Of a stretch of 64,000 nucleotides of DNA, positions 14,297 through 22,910 are shown one piece after another. Every line of letters starts with the position of its first letter. Position 1 is the first letter of the stretch. The stretch lies in contig NZ_JAGHQU010000001.1 of the NCBI RefSeq assembly GCF_017744135.1, forward strand, positions 434,001-498,000, written 5' to 3'. A model generated the notes under the pieces. The model had not been told where the DNA came from, did not search any database, and worked only from the letters and a program-made list of their open reading frames with translations. Source of the stretch: Endozoicomonas sp. G2_2 (GTDB taxonomy: Bacteria; Pseudomonadota; Gammaproteobacteria; Nevskiales; Salinisphaeraceae). Position numbers and translations under genes: made by a program.

Positions 14297-17200
14297 CTAC
14301 TTGCCGGTGAGCGAAAACGTCGCCCGGGGCTGGGCATCGGCGGCACGGTCGATGACCGAATCGGCGAGGGTAATGCGATCCGGCGGCACATCGCGCGCGG
14401 CGAGATAGTCGCGCACCGCGGACGCGCGGCTGTCGGCGAGCTGGCGTAGCGCGGGGATATTGCCGTTGTCGATCGTGTCGCCGCCGAACAGCGACATCGC
14501 ATCGGCATCCTGCGGCGTCGCGTTGGCCTGGACGGTCAGGCGCAGTCCCGGTTTCTCGCGCATGGATTGCGCGATGTTGCCCAGATAGCCGCGATCGTCG
14601 GGCTGGATGTAATGCTTGCCGGCGACGAACACCACCGGCTTGGACACCAGCGAGCGCCCCAGATTGAGCAGCGCGTTCTTGGCCTTGTTGAGCAGGCCGA
14701 GCGGCGAGTAATCGCTCATGATCGTGGTGCGCAGACCGGCAAGCACCGCCTCGCGTACGAGGTTGCGGATCGAGAAGTAGGGGTTGGTTACGTCGCCCAG
14801 GATGGCGGTCTCGAACTGGATGGTGTCGTCCTGGCCGCGCACCAGGCTTAACGCGGTATCCATGGAAATGCCGAATACGATTTCGGTCTCCTCGCCCGGC
14901 GTGTCCACCAGCCGGAAATTCGACAGCGTGGTATCTAGATTGCCATCGAGCTGGCCATCGGTGGCTTCCAGATTCAGCGTGCCGTCGGCCACGCCGCGTG
15001 CGATCCGCCGGCCCATGGCCGCGTTGAGATAGCCTGACATCGGCGCCAGCGCGAGTGAACGCATCCAGGCGTCCAGATCCATGTTCATGCCGCCGCTTGC
15101 CAGCGGCGCGATCGTGCCGCGGCTGTCCAGGTGGCCGTACTCGCCCACGTCCAGCGCCAGTCGATAGTTCGCGTCCTGTTCGGGGCTGGCCGTGTCGAGA
15201 CCGTCGATCGTGAGTTCCAGCGCCGAGCCGCTGAGTTGCACGGGCGGGCGGACCGCGACATCCGTGAAGCCGATCGAGGGCCCGGTCAGGGTCAGATGAT
15301 CGATGGCATAGGTCGACGGCGCACCGGCGGTGTCGGACGCCCCCGCCGCATCGGCGCCCGATGCGTTCTCGCCGCCGAAATAGAGTGCCATGACGCCCAT
15401 GCCGGATGCGTCGCGCCGAACGTGAATGTCGGCGCCGTCGATATCGAGATTCGACAGCCGATAGGCGCGCAGGTCGTCTAGCGCAAAACCGCGCGCGGTC
15501 GCGTTGGTGGCGTCGAGCACAGCCGCGCTGGTGTCGTTGTCGCCCAGAAAGCGCACGCCGGTGGCCTGAAGTGTGTCGAAGGCGATGGCGTTCAGACCGT
15601 CGATGGCGAGATTGTCCAGTTCGGCGTCGCGCAGCGCGATCCAGGGCGCGCCGATCGCGGTATTTGTGAGCGCGAATGCCTGGCTGGCGATATCGCCGGC
15701 GACGCGCAACCGAAGGCCGGTGCCATCGACGGGCTGTTCGCTGTAATCGCCGTTGAACACGATGCGCTCCGACGACAGGGCGAGCGGTTGGCCGGGCAGG
15801 GCGAGGCGGGCATGGTTTGCGATGAGGCGCCCCTGCATGCGCCGGGCGAACCGGGCGCCGATGTCGAAAGCCATCGTGCCGTTGTAGCGTGCGGCGTCGG
15901 CCTCGAACGTGGCGGTGGCCGGCACGGCGAAGGTCAGCGCGCCGCTATCGAGGCCGCCGTCGCTGCGCACGCGAATACGCTGATTAGCCGTCACGTCGAT
16001 CGCGCCGTTCCAGCTCAGAGGCGCCATATTCAGGCCGAGGCTGCCGGGCACGCGCAGATCGGCGTCGTCGGCTTTGAGCGTGCCGTCGCTATCGATCTGC
16101 AGGTCGTCGGCTGCGGTCGTGGTGACGGTACCCTGCCAGTCCAGCGCACGGGCCTGGAAACGGCTGTCGCCGGCCAGGGCGACGTCCAGCGTCTGCGCAC
16201 GCAGGCGGCCATCGTTGTCGACGGCGACGGTATTGCCGAGCGTGGTTTCGTTTACGCCCTGCCAATGCAGATCGCGGCCGTCGATGCGCGTGTCGCCCGC
16301 GAGGCTCATCGTCAGGTGATCGGCGTCGAGCGCGCCGTCTCCCGTGATGGTGGTATCGCGGCTTGCGACGCGAACGTTCGTCTGCCCCTGCCAGTCGAGG
16401 CGCGGCGTCTGCAGCCGTGTTTCGCTGGCGTTGCTGTTCAGGTCAAGGTCTTTCGCGATCAGCGTGCCATCGGTGTCGATACGGGTGGCGTCGGCGGCGA
16501 GGGTAAGCGCGGTGCGCCCCTGCCAGTCGCCGCTGGCCTGGGTGAGGCTGAACGCATCGCCGTGCTTCAGCGCCATCGCGGTGGCCTGTAGCTGGCCATC
16601 GCTGGTGAGCGTGCCGGGTTGACCGTCGGGACGCAGCAGCGCGAATTGCAGGGCGCCCTGCCAGTTGAAGCGCTCGCCGGAAAGCGTCAGGCCGTTGGCC
16701 AGCGCCAGGGCGGATTGGCGCCAATCCGCCTTGCCGTCGATGGCGAGGGTCAGATCCCGGGCCGGGTCGTAACGCAGGTCGATCTGCTGCTTGCTGTCGA
16801 CGGTGCCGGTCAGGCGCTGCAGGCCGCCGGCGCGCGTGATGGGCGAGAGCAGGTCGAGTTCGAAATTCGTGGTCTCGATCTCGAAGTGGCCCGAGACGGT
16901 ATCGCCGAATGGCGTGATGCGGCCTTGGACGCGGAGATGGCTGTCGTCCACGCGCATGTCGGCGTCGAGCGGCACGTCGTTGTCCTTCTGCCAGGTCACC
17001 ACGTCGCGCGCGCTGGATTCGTTGAGCACCAGTTCGCGATCGACCGCCGGCTGGTCGCCGTTGGCCGGCTGCCGGTAGTGCAGACGCAGCTTGCCGAGCG
17101 TGAGCTGCTGGAGTGCCAGCCCCCATTCAAGCGGCTGCGAATCGTCTGCGTCGTTCGGGGCCACCGGCACGCCGGCCACCCGCAGAGTGTTGTCGGCCGT

Positions 17201-17536
17201 GCGTCGTATGTCCGCGGCCGCGTCTTCGAGCACCAGGCGCGAGACATGCAGGCGCTTGGACAGCAGCGGGGCGTAGTCGATGGATACGAGCAGTCGGCCG
17301 ACCGAAAAACCGTCGCCCGCTTCGCCCTGGCCTTCGGCATCCTCGAACACCACGGTGCCGCTGAATACGTCGACATCGACGTTGCCGAAAGAGGCCGTTA
17401 CACCGGCTTGGGCGAGGTAGCGGCGCGTCAGCTGTCGGGCCGCCACTTCAGGAAGCCACAGCAGCGCGAGACCGACGAGCGCGGCCAGCACGCCGAGCGC
17501 CACGATTGCGCGTTTCGCGCGGCGGGAAAGATTCAT
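14297..17536 (-). CDS. Large AsmA-like / DUF748 envelope protein
   Basis: A 1079-residue protein anchored by one N-terminal membrane helix (about residues 8-30, after MNLSRRAKRA) with the rest in the periplasm. The beginning ARQLTRRYLAQAGVTASFGNVDVDVFSGTVVFED (in part) and the central TPFGDTVSGHFEIE-type segments are those of DUF748/AsmA-like proteins, long beta-groove proteins thought to support lipid transport to the outer membrane. Residues about 290-595 form a tandem repeat with W-[QN]-G. The region near 850-950 resembles DUF748 (MDLDAWMRSLALAPMSGYLN), and the last 80 residues resemble an OmpA-like peptidoglycan-binding fold (ADSRASAVRDYLAARDVPPDRI). ATG 17536 begins the membrane anchor; the upstream frame is unlikely. 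Confidence 0.85.
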   Translation of the reverse strand: MNLSRRAKRAIVALGVLAALVGLALLWLPEVAARQLTRRYLAQAGVTASFGNVDVDVFSGTVVFEDAEGQGEAGDGFSVGRLLVSIDYAPLLSKRLHVSRLVLEDAAADIRRTADNTLRVAGVPVAPNDADDSQPLEWGLALQQLTLGKLRLHYRQPANGDQPAVDRELVLNESSARDVVTWQKDNDVPLDADMRVDDSHLRVQGRITPFGDTVSGHFEIETTNFELDLLSPITRAGGLQRLTGTVDSKQQIDLRYDPARDLTLAIDGKADWRQSALALANGLTLSGERFNWQGALQFALLRPDGQPGTLTSDGQLQATAMALKHGDAFSLTQASGDWQGRTALTLAADATRIDTDGTLIAKDLDLNSNASETRLQTPRLDWQGQTNVRVASRDTTITGDGALDADHLTMSLAGDTRIDGRDLHWQGVNETTLGNTVAVDNDGRLRAQTLDVALAGDSRFQARALDWQGTVTTTAADDLQIDSDGTLKADDADLRVPGSLGLNMAPLSWNGAIDVTANQRIRVRSDGGLDSGALTFAVPATATFEADAARYNGTMAFDIGARFARRMQGRLIANHARLALPGQPLALSSERIVFNGDYSEQPVDGTGLRLRVAGDIASQAFALTNTAIGAPWIALRDAELDNLAIDGLNAIAFDTLQATGVRFLGDNDTSAAVLDATNATARGFALDDLRAYRLSNLDIDGADIHVRRDASGMGVMALYFGGENASGADAAGASDTAGAPSTYAIDHLTLTGPSIGFTDVAVRPPVQLSGSALELTIDGLDTASPEQDANYRLALDVGEYGHLDSRGTIAPLASGGMNMDLDAWMRSLALAPMSGYLNAAMGRRIARGVADGTLNLEATDGQLDGNLDTTLSNFRLVDTPGEETEIVFGISMDTALSLVRGQDDTIQFETAILGDVTNPYFSIRNLVREAVLAGLRTTIMSDYSPLGLLNKAKNALLNLGRSLVSKPVVFVAGKHYIQPDDRGYLGNIAQSMREKPGLRLTVQANATPQDADAMSLFGGDTIDNGNIPALRQLADSRASAVRDYLAARDVPPDRITLADSVIDRAADAQPRATFSLTGK
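15749..16663 (-). repeat. In-gene tandem repeat, 42-46 residues per unit, marked W-[QN]-G
   Basis: Within the DUF748-like protein eight successive units carry an aromatic-[QN]-G mark: FNWQGAL, GDWQGRT, LDWQGQT, LHWQGVN, LDWQGTV, LSWNGAI, ARYNGTM and IVFNGDY. From the first W, spacings are 46, 44, 43, 42, 42 and 42 residues; the last interval was not counted exactly. A second mark, D-x-DG-x-L, falls 15-20 residues after most W-Q-G. The units diverge at DNA level, so this is an old repeat. Confidence 0.8.
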
Positions 17537-17732
17537 AGCGACATACGACCGGCCACCCCAATAGGCCCGTTTTCCGCAACAGGCGTGCCCCGGCACCGTG
17601 CGGGCGCCATCGTGGCGTGCGCCGCCGCGGTGTGCGCCCATACGGCCGCGCCGTTCGGCGCTTCGCACGCGTATTTGGAAAACAGGCTCCAGACTTTATC
17701 ATCGGGTCTTCGTTTCCCGACAAACGCACGAC

Positions 17733-18692: not shown

Positions 18693-19193
18693 CTACTTCT
18701 GCGCCTCGGTGCCCTCGATTTGCGTGTCGGGTGCCGCTTCGCGGATTACGCGCTCCATCTCGGCCACGCGTTCCGCCTCGGCATCGACCATCATGAGCAC
18801 CTGACCCTGCTCGATCGCGTTTTCGTAGGCCTCGATCTGCGAGTTGTCGTGGCGGATACCGATCATGCTCGATGCCCAGGCACCAAAGCCGGCGCCGGCC
18901 ACGCCGGTGGCCGCGACCAGCCCGCCGCCGATCGCGAGTCCCGCCGGCGGAAAAGCCATCGCCGCGAGGCCGGCCACCACGCCGGTCACGCCGCCCGCAG
19001 CCGCGCCGCGCTCCGCCGAACCGACCAGATCGGAGGTTTCGGTCACGCTCGGCTCCGGCAGATCGCGGGTCTGGGTTTCGTCGCGGGCGACGACAGACAT
19101 GTCGTCTTCCGAGACCTTGTTTCGTTTAAGCGTGTCCACGACCTGATGGGCCGTATCGATATCCGGAAGCAGAAAGTAAAGACGACGTTGCAT
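18693..19193 (-). CDS. Glycine-zipper protein of unknown function, DUF1269-like
   Basis: A 166-residue protein starting MQRRLYFLLPDIDTAHQVV, a beta-alpha ferredoxin-like start seen in DUF1269-type proteins, then a Gly/Ala-rich hydrophobic hairpin (residues about 62-110, GSAERGAAAGGVTGVVAGLA, then further Gly/Ala to GAWASSMIG) that could insert in a membrane, and a second charged alpha-beta segment including VLMMVDAEAERVAEME. Function unknown; related proteins appear near general-stress genes. It is an independent unit with the shared terminator downstream. Confidence 0.72.
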   Translation of the reverse strand: MQRRLYFLLPDIDTAHQVVDTLKRNKVSEDDMSVVARDETQTRDLPEPSVTETSDLVGSAERGAAAGGVTGVVAGLAAMAFPPAGLAIGGGLVAATGVAGAGFGAWASSMIGIRHDNSQIEAYENAIEQGQVLMMVDAEAERVAEMERVIREAAPDTQIEGTEAQK

Positions 19194-20689: not shown

Positions 20690-21088
20690 GATGATCGCTC
20701 GTTGTTGCCTCGAAACCTGTGCGGTGGATGCCGCCCGGGCGCGCGAGTATAGCAACGCCCCGGCTCGTGCTTGCCGCGGGGCAGCTGGCCTCGAACACGA
20801 AGACCTCGTCGTTCATGAATCGTCGCTATTGTGTCGGCATGCGATCGGGGCGGCCGGCAACGAAGGGCGGGCGCGGCGTGCTTGTTGTACGGTAGCGAGG
20901 GCTGAGGCTGTCTTGGCCGGCGCCAGGCGTTGCTCCTTGTCGCTTTGCCGGAAGCGTTCGGCCGAACATGAGCGACGGTGATACCGGCTTCGAATCGGCG
21001 ATGCGCCGGGCGCTTCACGCGGCGCCCGGTATCAACATCTTTGGGACAGGAACGCGATCCGCGAGGATTCACCATCAGAGATTCCCCG
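20690..21088. other. 399-base divergent gap between argH and algZ
   Basis: No convincing gene. The open frames here are short, lack ribosome-binding sites and show no family features. The argH-proximal part contains the candidate promoter at 20746-20754. The algZ-proximal part has no recognisable box. A GGGCGC..GCGCCC imperfect inverted repeat (near 21008-21027) is the only other structure noted. Confidence 0.5.
20746..20754 (-). promoter_or_regulatory. Candidate extended -10 promoter for argH
   Basis: On the minus strand TGCTATACT gives an extended -10 (TGnTATACT), about 57 bases before the argH ATG. No good -35 is seen at normal spacing, which is acceptable for extended -10 promoters. Consensus match only. 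Confidence 0.35.
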
Positions 21089-22138
21089 ATGCAGCCCGAG
21101 CGCGAACCCGTCGAATTCCTGCCGGATTTCTGTACCGGCGCGCGGGTCTTGCGCGTGCTCGTGGTCTGCGAGGCGGTGGCCGTGGTGTTGGCCCTGGGCG
21201 GCTCGCTTACGACGGCACTGGGCGAGCGTTTCCTGTTGCTGTCGATCTATCTGCAGTGGATCGGCATCTGCAGCGCTGCGGCACTGTGCCTGATCAAGCG
21301 CTATGCCAGCCGGCTTTCGGCGCGCGGCGTGGCATTGCTGGCTTACCTGACGCTGCTGGCGGTCACCTTCGCCATTACCGAAATCACCTATGTGGCGGGC
21401 CGTTATTCCGGTTTCGCGCTGCTGCTCGAGGACGCGTCGCACGACGGCTTCGTGGCGCGCAGCCTGGGGATCTGTGCGGTGGTGTCCGCACTGGCCCTGC
21501 GCTATTTCTGGCTGCGCTCGGCCTGGCAGAACCAGGCGCAGGCCGAGATGCGCGCGCGTCTGGAAGCGCTCCAGGCGCGTATCGAACCGCACTTTTTATT
21601 CAATAGCCTCAACAGCATCGCTGCGCTGATCGCCGTTCGCCCCGACGATGCCGAAAACGCGCTCGAGGACCTGGCCGTGTTGCTGCGCGCGCGCCTGGCC
21701 ACGAGCACGCCGGAAAGCGTGACGCTCGACGAGGAAATGACGATGGTCGACGCCTATGTGCGTATCGAATCGCTGCGCCTGGGCGAGCGTTTGCACGTGG
21801 ACGTGCAGATCGAGGACGGCGCGCGTTCGTGTCGGCTGCCGGCGCTGTCGCTGCAGCCCTTGGTGGAGAACGCGATCGGTCATGGCGTTGCCCGCCTGCC
21901 GGAGGGGGGCACGGTAACGCTGCAGGCGCGCCGCGAGCGCGATGCGCTGGTGCTGCAGGTAGCCAATCCGCTGGCGGGAGACGCGCCGCCCGTTCCGGGC
22001 AATCGCCAGGCGTTGGCCAACATCCGCCATCGCCTGGCGCTGCGGTACGAGGGCGCGGCCGAGCTGCGGGTGCACGCGCAGACCGCGCGGTTCACGGTCG
22101 ACATGGTCGTGCCGCAGCGGGCAGAGTCCGTTTCGTGA
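21089..22138 (+). CDS. algZ: AlgZ/FimS-type sensor kinase (LytS family)
   Basis: A 349-residue membrane kinase. It starts with the FLPDFC motif typical of AlgZ, then four membrane helices (about residues 22-135), then the histidine-kinase segment ARIEPHFLFNSLNSI with His168 and PLVENAIGHGV as the ATP-lid N box. The later glycine boxes are weak: where typical kinases have DxGxG this one has VANPLAG, as AlgZ/FimS relatives often do. AlgZ pairs with AlgR and in Pseudomonas controls alginate and twitching; targets here are unknown. The gene lies directly before algR and the heme genes, matching Pseudomonas gene order. ATG 21089 begins the conserved N-terminus. Confidence 0.88.
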   Translation: MQPEREPVEFLPDFCTGARVLRVLVVCEAVAVVLALGGSLTTALGERFLLLSIYLQWIGICSAAALCLIKRYASRLSARGVALLAYLTLLAVTFAITEITYVAGRYSGFALLLEDASHDGFVARSLGICAVVSALALRYFWLRSAWQNQAQAEMRARLEALQARIEPHFLFNSLNSIAALIAVRPDDAENALEDLAVLLRARLATSTPESVTLDEEMTMVDAYVRIESLRLGERLHVDVQIEDGARSCRLPALSLQPLVENAIGHGVARLPEGGTVTLQARRERDALVLQVANPLAGDAPPVPGNRQALANIRHRLALRYEGAAELRVHAQTARFTVDMVVPQRAESVS

Positions 22139-22181
22139 ACGACCTGAACGTGAACGGTTTCAAGACGATGGCAGCACCGGC

Positions 22182-22910
22182 ATGAAAATCGTGATCGTCG
22201 ACGACGAGCCGCTGGCGCGCGAACGCCTGCGCCGCATGATCGAACCGTTTCCCGGCTACGAGGTGGTCGGCGAGGCGGGCGACGGCGAAAGCGCGTTGCG
22301 CTGCTTGCACAATACCGCCGCCGATACGGTGCTGCTCGACGTGCACATGCCCGGCATGGACGGGCTTCAGGTGGCGCGCGCTCTGGCCGAATCCGACGTG
22401 CCGCCGGCCGTGATCTTCATCACCGCACACAGCGAGCATGCGCTGTCGGCGCACAACAGCCACGCCGCGGGTTATCTGCTCAAGCCCGTGCGCCGCGACG
22501 ATCTGGCGGCGGCGCTGTCGCGCGCGCGCCGACCGAGCCGCGCCCAGCTGGCCGCGCTCGAAGACAATGCCTCAACCGATCGCCCGGCGTTCGTCAGCGC
22601 GCGGACCCGCGACGGCATCGAGCGCGTCGCGGTCGCCGACATTCTCTACTTCTGGGCCGACCAGAAATACACCACGGTCTATCATATGCAGGGCGAACTG
22701 CTGATCGAGCAGTCGTTGCTCACGCTGGAGCAATCGCTGGGCGGGGCGTTCATGCGCGTGCACCGCAAGGCGCTGGTTGCGTGCCGCCATATCACCGGCC
22801 TGCGCCTGGATGGCCCGGACGGCGCGAGCCTCACGCTGCGCCACGTGCGCGATGGTGTGCCGGTCAGCCGGCGACGGCTGGCCGACGTGCGCGCGCTGCT
22901 CGAAAAGTAG
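22182..22910 (+). CDS. algR: AlgR-type LytTR response regulator
   Basis: A 242-residue regulator with a receiver domain (about residues 1-115: VDDEPLARERLR, phospho-Asp53 in LLDVHMPGMDG, TAHSEHAL, Lys in LLKPVRRDD) and a LytTR DNA-binding domain (about 135-240: YFWADQKYTTVYH, FMRVHRKALV). It follows algZ by 43 bases and precedes hemC by 65 bases on the same strand, so read-through into the heme genes is plausible. The LytTR domain binds direct repeats in DNA; targets are not identified here. Confidence 0.93.
   Translation: MKIVIVDDEPLARERLRRMIEPFPGYEVVGEAGDGESALRCLHNTAADTVLLDVHMPGMDGLQVARALAESDVPPAVIFITAHSEHALSAHNSHAAGYLLKPVRRDDLAAALSRARRPSRAQLAALEDNASTDRPAFVSARTRDGIERVAVADILYFWADQKYTTVYHMQGELLIEQSLLTLEQSLGGAFMRVHRKALVACRHITGLRLDGPDGASLTLRHVRDGVPVSRRRLADVRALLEK

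Follow-up and report, generated by a model that had tools for sequence, protein, structure and literature searches.

The DUF748 gene, its domains and its neighbours

We analysed a stretch of 64,000 nucleotides (the window) from a genome that groups with the salt-loving genus Salinisphaera. At 14297..17536 on the minus strand, the list of open reading frames contains a gene for a 1079-amino-acid protein of the DUF748/AsmA superfamily. Its start was set by alignment at the ATG at 17536; the relatives align from about this codon, and an upstream GTG at 17668 is therefore probably not the start. The GC3 of the gene is 0.83 to 0.85 along its length, indicating that the reading frame is correct. An antisense open frame of 267 amino acids (15788-16591, plus strand) lies over the repeat array described below, but it is probably not a gene, as its GC by codon position (0.85/0.52/0.70) resembles a mirror image of that on the coding strand. 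Pfam DUF748 (PF05359) matched residues 3-1013 of the 1078-residue query with an E value of 4e-51 and 174.6 bits, above the membership cut-off of 50, and the match covered positions 12-928 of the 1037 in the model. The protein scored 159.7 bits in the genome search, as opposed to up to 929 for the best DUF748 matches in 143 genomes of the class, and thus represents a distant DUF748 subfamily.

The full-length AlphaFold2 model showed an N-terminal helix, probably a membrane helix, followed by strands up to residue 870, which is the layout of the AsmA superfamily. The helix (residues 5-43, 17408..17524, minus strand, like all the parts of the gene given here) is hydrophobic in sequence and was modelled with a local pLDDT of about 46 to 77; it is a probable inner-membrane anchor. 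The N-terminal groove part (residues 44-238, 16823..17407) consists of model strands, and the Foldseek matches of the full model include the Vps13 N-terminal fragment 6cbc_B. Behind the array, the groove part at residues 633-706 (15419..15640) comprises model strands 630-646, 650-665, 672-687, 691-700 and 703-706. The C-terminal residues 956-1079 (14300..14671) form an OmpA/Pal-like domain, which VIA-align superimposed on 4g4v with a Z of 14.2 and an rmsd of 2.1 over 102 residues; Pfam OmpA gave 19.7 bits there, under its cut-off of 27.2. In an alignment with 2kgw and 2lca, the Arg was kept, while the Asp column held another residue and an Asp stood three places further on. We take these Asp and Arg to be the peptidoglycan-holding residues of OmpA/Pal domains.

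Both speA and a gene resembling 3-hydroxyisobutyrate dehydrogenase flanked the DUF748 gene in 7 of the 12 named loci of the genus, and one of them did so in 4 more. Seven of the 12 loci also have, close to the DUF748 gene, a gene for a small protein in which Pfam recognised a YflT heat-stress domain (2.9e-06; 18693-19193, minus strand in the window). A histidine kinase and a LytTR response regulator (20978-22910, plus strand) lie beside argH and were kept in the genus loci that reach that far. The genome itself also encodes TamB, YhdP and two AsmA proteins, and a search for YdbH gave no YdbH-like match in it. According to passages of PMC10900882, EpaF/PA4735 of Pseudomonas aeruginosa, a PF05359 protein of 1,088 amino acids with a predicted tube-like beta structure and an N-terminal helix, shares a redundant essential role with TamB, YhdP and YdbH. 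The presence of TamB, YhdP and two AsmA proteins suggests that the DUF748 protein could likewise belong to a redundant set; its likeness to EpaF/PA4735 is one of Pfam family.

Eight tandem units with one modelled fold and two faces

Eight consecutive units, each opening with an aromatic-[QN]-G step, were found in the middle of the protein. They are unit 1 (WQG; residues 288-333, 16538..16675; motif at residue 292, first base 16663), unit 2 (WQG; 334-377, 16406..16537; 338, 16525), unit 3 (WQG; 378-420, 16277..16405; 382, 16393), unit 4 (WQG; 421-462, 16151..16276; 425, 16264), unit 5 (WQG; 463-504, 16025..16150; 467, 16138), unit 6 (WNG; 505-546, 15899..16024; 509, 16012), unit 7 (YNG; 547-589, 15770..15898; 551, 15886) and unit 8 (FNG; 590-632, 15641..15769; 594, 15757). 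Units 3 and 4 lie within the part that varies in number among relatives. The successive steps are 46, 44, 43, 42, 42, 42 and 43 residues apart, and a chain of 8 motifs at spacings of 38 to 50 compares with a longest chain of 2 when the residues of the whole protein were shuffled 20,000 times, bearing out the eight units of 42 to 46 residues that the first-pass annotation had described. The self-similarity of the array was highest at lag 42 (BLOSUM mean of +0.094) and second highest at lag 84, whereas 2,000 shuffles reached a maximum of -0.289 for lags 42, 43, 84 and 126. The annotation had also placed a D-x-DG-x-L mark 15 to 20 residues on in each unit. Its exact form was present in only three of the eight units, and the shorter DG-x-L held for six, with QGRL and AGDI in its place in units 7 and 8, the last two; the offset from the aromatic was 17 to 21 residues. 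Tandem Repeats Finder detected no repeat at the DNA level at score 30, and the pairwise identity among units was only 7 to 50%, indicating that the copies are old.

AlphaFold2 models were built of the full-length protein and of residues 227-705 alone, from 13 input sequences only. The former had a mean pLDDT of 69.1 and a pTM of 0.49, with block values of 64 to 93 over residues 241-660 and below 50 over residues 811-963, and the latter had a mean pLDDT of 81.8 and a pTM of 0.74. Each unit was modelled in both as one antiparallel beta-hairpin with two strands of about 17 to 19 residues, so that the units share one predicted fold. The aromatic-x-G lies within the first strand near its middle and the DG within the second, neither of them in a turn; in units 5-6, the two models alike have fragmented strands, made up of short pieces. 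The strands that flank the array on both sides have the same length and order as those of the array, so that the hairpins continue the flanking sheet, and the array looks like added rungs in the groove of the protein itself rather than like a foreign domain. The rung-like arrangement that had been proposed from sequence accordingly agrees with the AlphaFold2 models.

The two faces of the hairpins differed in character. In the window's eight units, the face that carries the aromatic averaged +0.69 on the Eisenberg scale and the opposite face -0.51, a difference reached by none of 10,000 shuffles, and the same apolar/polar alternation was seen over 102 motifs of 15 proteins of the genus. The alternation slips at mid-strand, close to the motif (a few residues away) and at the point at which the modelled strand is interrupted, and this slip may mark a bend of the sheet.

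A Foldseek search with the full model ranked the lipid bridge LPD-3 (9cap_A) first, with an E value of 8.9e-8 but a TM-score of 0.14 and an rmsd of 26.6. The 13 matches at E ≤ 0.001 included 6cbc_B (E 6.9e-4), and those besides LPD-3 and Vps13 were OmpA/Pal-type domains. With the array alone, the Foldseek matches at E ≤ 0.001 were to six chains of LptD and one siderophore receptor, all at low TM; proteins of the Vps13/ATG2 type were absent from the best 50 rows. VIA-align of the array alone gave ApoB-100 with a Z of 12.3 but an rmsd of 10.1, then the hairpin sheets Morn1, with a Z of 10.8 and an rmsd of 4.0 over 206 residues, and OspA, with a Z of 10.1, neither of which is a groove, and also porins; repeats with a Z under about 13 may share only a common arrangement. 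The N-terminal part of LptD, the beta-belt of ApoB-100, MORN proteins and OspA are also long antiparallel sheets, but the resemblance came with low TM or large rmsd. A family absent from these lists, such as TamB, is not thereby ruled out.

Unit number and motif among relatives

The number of units varies within the genus, as the first-pass annotation had anticipated, although there for strains and here between species. The relatives include Salinisphaera shabanensis, orenii, halophila, hydrothermalis and japonica and further species or MAGs. The 14 genomes of the genus encode 15 such proteins, of which six have 8 units (the window's protein and L006-L010), one has 7 (L011) and eight have 6 (L012-L018 and L029). 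The stretch aligned with residues 227-705 of the window's protein is 472-483 residues long in the five further 8-unit proteins compared and 395-396 in the seven 6-unit proteins compared, the latter being 83-84 fewer, which equals two units. The unit model found fewer stretches in some proteins (5-6 in 6-unit proteins and 7 in L007), owing to one unit that lacks its aromatic or has diverged. Units 7 and 8 kept their positional best match, and are orthologous, in all 14 relatives; unit 1 kept its position in 13 relatives and unit 2 did in 11, while the best matches of the middle units were random as to position. In the 7-unit protein, the first unit is interrupted by a linker rich in proline, alanine and serine, some 50 residues long, at about frame residues 318-385.

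The shared flanking genes indicate that most of these proteins are orthologues in place that differ by the gain or loss of whole units in the middle. The identity to the window's own proteins was 40-56% for the DUF748 protein, 71-86% for speA and 78-92% for argH. Isolate GH4, a Salinisphaera MAG, has two DUF748 copies (L040 and L043), both with 6 units, and L043, the second copy of its isolate, was found beside neither speA nor the 3-hydroxyisobutyrate-dehydrogenase-like gene. The 6-unit paralogue L029 fell outside the 6-unit group (7 rows, support 90/94) in a tree whose outgroup branch is very long and whose base is not firm, and the tree does not fix the direction of the change, from 6 to 8 or from 8 to 6.

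Searched by sequence at E ≤ 0.001, the array matched all 14 genus genomes and none of the 71 other genomes of the order that the search covered. The full protein matched in 24 of 61 relatives, with no match in any of the three genomes of other genera of the same family. The viral contigs searched contained no relative, and the only match on the plasmids searched was to a distantly related DUF748 protein from Methylomagnum (27% of the query). An 800-residue protein from another family (L019) was without the array.

We then compared the mid-regions of DUF748 proteins outside the genus that share N- and C-terminal parts, and the mid-region motif, with the window's protein. Of 41 places at 235 bits or more, 40 were used (G367, frame 639, was left out) and L019 was added, giving 41 anchored proteins; L128 and L130, with short N anchors, were dropped before the gap analysis, and L118, L122 and L151, with short mid-regions, were also dropped before the motif count, leaving 36. 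A broadened motif, [WYF]-[QNKRDEHST]-G, occurred 54 times in the mid-regions of these 36 proteins, compared with 10.9 expected by shuffling. There were 0-3 copies each in 34 of them, compared with 5-9 regex matches in Salinisphaera, and 9 of 26 motif spacings were 45-49 residues. At i-E ≤ 0.1, the unit model matched 12 of the 46 ORFs from outside the genus, against 1 match in 230 shuffled sequences. By comparison, aromatic-x-G was not enriched in seven high-scoring DUF748 proteins of another branch (p 0.09-0.85), which indicates that the motif belongs to the present branch of DUF748 and was expanded in Salinisphaera. It was not enriched in TamB (partial frame), YhdP and one AsmA of the same genome either; the second AsmA gave an unadjusted p of 0.034.

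The hairpins with aromatic-x-G in the same place and at a spacing of about 45 in other DUF748 proteins indicate that the array arose by multiplying a rung which the family already has. An insert of a separate kind is therefore not supported, as these hairpins also occur, in fewer copies, elsewhere in the family. The first-pass annotation had named relatives with the same W-Q-G spacing, already described as part of DUF748, as a refutation, and the result comes near to this condition: a similar spacing of about 45 is present there, but a literature search on the family, partly from passages, turned up no description of it.

The lengths of the mid-regions relative to the anchors ranged from -50 to 480 residues, apart from one misanchored case; 7 proteins cluster at about 64 residues and 16 at about 108, 44 apart, and the genus lies at 281-377. 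With clusters collapsed (15 from 39 proteins), steps of unit size across DUF748 did not exceed chance, 0.60 of 5,000 random sets showing a periodicity as strong. Motif number correlated with mid-region length in the 36 proteins at r 0.68, and at 0.33 (p 0.05) without L150. In L154 (gap 287) there was one motif copy and in L124 (gap 195) none, so the mid-region can also grow in length by other means. L150 (G274), with 1232 amino acids and from another family of the class, had 8 regex matches at irregular spacing, and the Salinisphaera unit model found 2 weak stretches in it; this series is likely an independent expansion.

Probable extra rungs of a proposed lipid groove and the meaning of their number

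We consider it rather likely that the array adds eight rungs to the beta-groove that the protein already has, that the protein is a bridge-like lipid carrier anchored in the inner membrane, and that its central units are gained and lost whole. The eight units would extend the groove, each unit of 42 to 46 residues contributing one antiparallel beta-hairpin, with the aromatic-x-G and the DG stacked from unit to unit near mid-strand and one face of the sheet apolar. The sheet would curl into a groove, the N-terminal helix would hold the protein in the inner membrane, with the OmpA/Pal-like domain at the other end, and acyl chains would be held along the apolar face during their passage through the periplasm. 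In the history of the genus, the gain or loss of whole central units would have made the sheet longer or shorter by two strands per unit and left the ends unchanged. Given the spacing of beta strands, two strands correspond to about 1 nm.

The sheet itself might be of another kind. The array-only fold matches are weak and mixed, so that the array could be a flat single-layer sheet, and Morn1 and OspA are both tandem hairpin sheets; a MORN- or OspA-like sheet would serve as a binding or scaffold surface instead of a lipid groove. However, its apolar face would then stand open, the array continues DUF748 strands on both sides, and its strands of about 18 residues are longer than those of MORN repeats, in which the whole repeat has about 23 residues. 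The Pfam scan of the protein gave no MORN family at E ≤ 1. We regard such a surface as unlikely, and the separate binding surface that the first-pass annotation had offered as its other option found no support in the analysis. An adhesin-like beta-helix inserted separately is very improbable: the hint comes from Pfam DUF2807 over residues 391-488 (E 0.0052), whose 17 bits are below the cut-off of 24.2, whereas the model consists of antiparallel hairpins with 18-residue strands and the same motif is present in ordinary DUF748 proteins.

What governs the number of rungs is a question of its own, and the answers to it and the groove do not exclude one another. Any number above a minimum might work, with units coming and going by recombination between repeats; we give this near-neutral drift in length a substantial, though somewhat less than even, chance. 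The DUF748 gene changes faster than its neighbours speA and argH, the middle units are freely exchanged, and the mid-regions of the family span a wide range of lengths, all of which fit drift. However, the number has stayed constant in eight 6-unit and six 8-unit proteins despite deep divergence, and the lack of a recent copy at the DNA level points to a pace slower than slippage would give. The variation in whole units between conserved ends would also suit an adjustable ruler, in which the unit number is selected to match the distance from the inner membrane to the peptidoglycan or outer membrane and follows the width of the periplasm in each species. For eukaryotic bridges, a passage of PMC7613979 suggests that the number of RBG domains follows the contact width, and marks this as unstudied. 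However, YhdP, which should have the same gap to cross, is no shorter where the DUF748 protein has 6 units: its matched coordinates, divided by 3, come to 1258-1263 residues for five genomes with 8 units, 1263 for the one with 7 and 1263-1280 for six with 6. These are 12 of the 14 genomes; in the remaining two, the match is split between contigs. For TamB, the match covered no more than the C-terminal 342 residues and yielded no clean length. The periplasm-width reading is thus unsupported, and we hold a ruler to be improbable; since YhdP does not follow the unit number and the test for steps across the family was negative, drift was weighted above it.

The extra rungs have a precedent in the eukaryotic RBG bridges VPS13, ATG2 and Tweek/LPD-3, to which the window's protein is alike in its full-model Foldseek matches to LPD-3 and Vps13 and in its central growth. 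In VPS13, central duplication lengthens the groove and the ends are conserved, and an RBG repeat has five strands and a loop (both from passages of PMC7613979). By contrast, the unit here is a two-strand hairpin and does not qualify as an RBG repeat, and the protein is bacterial with an OmpA-like end. DUF748 had been placed near TamB and AsmA in 2015, according to a passage of PMC4494059. Our literature search found no account of an AsmA-type groove in bacteria whose length changes one motif-bearing hairpin at a time, and nothing that joins Salinisphaera and AsmA. Growth of a groove by central duplication is therefore already known from VPS13, whereas change by single hairpins marked by a motif appears new among the literature searched.

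The hairpin with aromatic-x-G and DG could be a portable rung of bacterial bridge proteins, added in steps of about 43 residues and tuning reach or capacity, a generalisation that we regard as doubtful; if it were true, Salinisphaera would offer a natural series of 6, 7 and 8 rungs at one locus. For DUF748, the pattern aromatic-x-G ... DG-x-L provides a sequence hallmark by which rungs can be found. The 6, 7 and 8 repeats in related species, mostly at the same chromosomal place, bear on what sets the length of a lipid bridge across the periplasm: they supply a graded set of lengths and a defined unit that can be put in or taken out, so that whether length matters becomes an ordinary genetic test.
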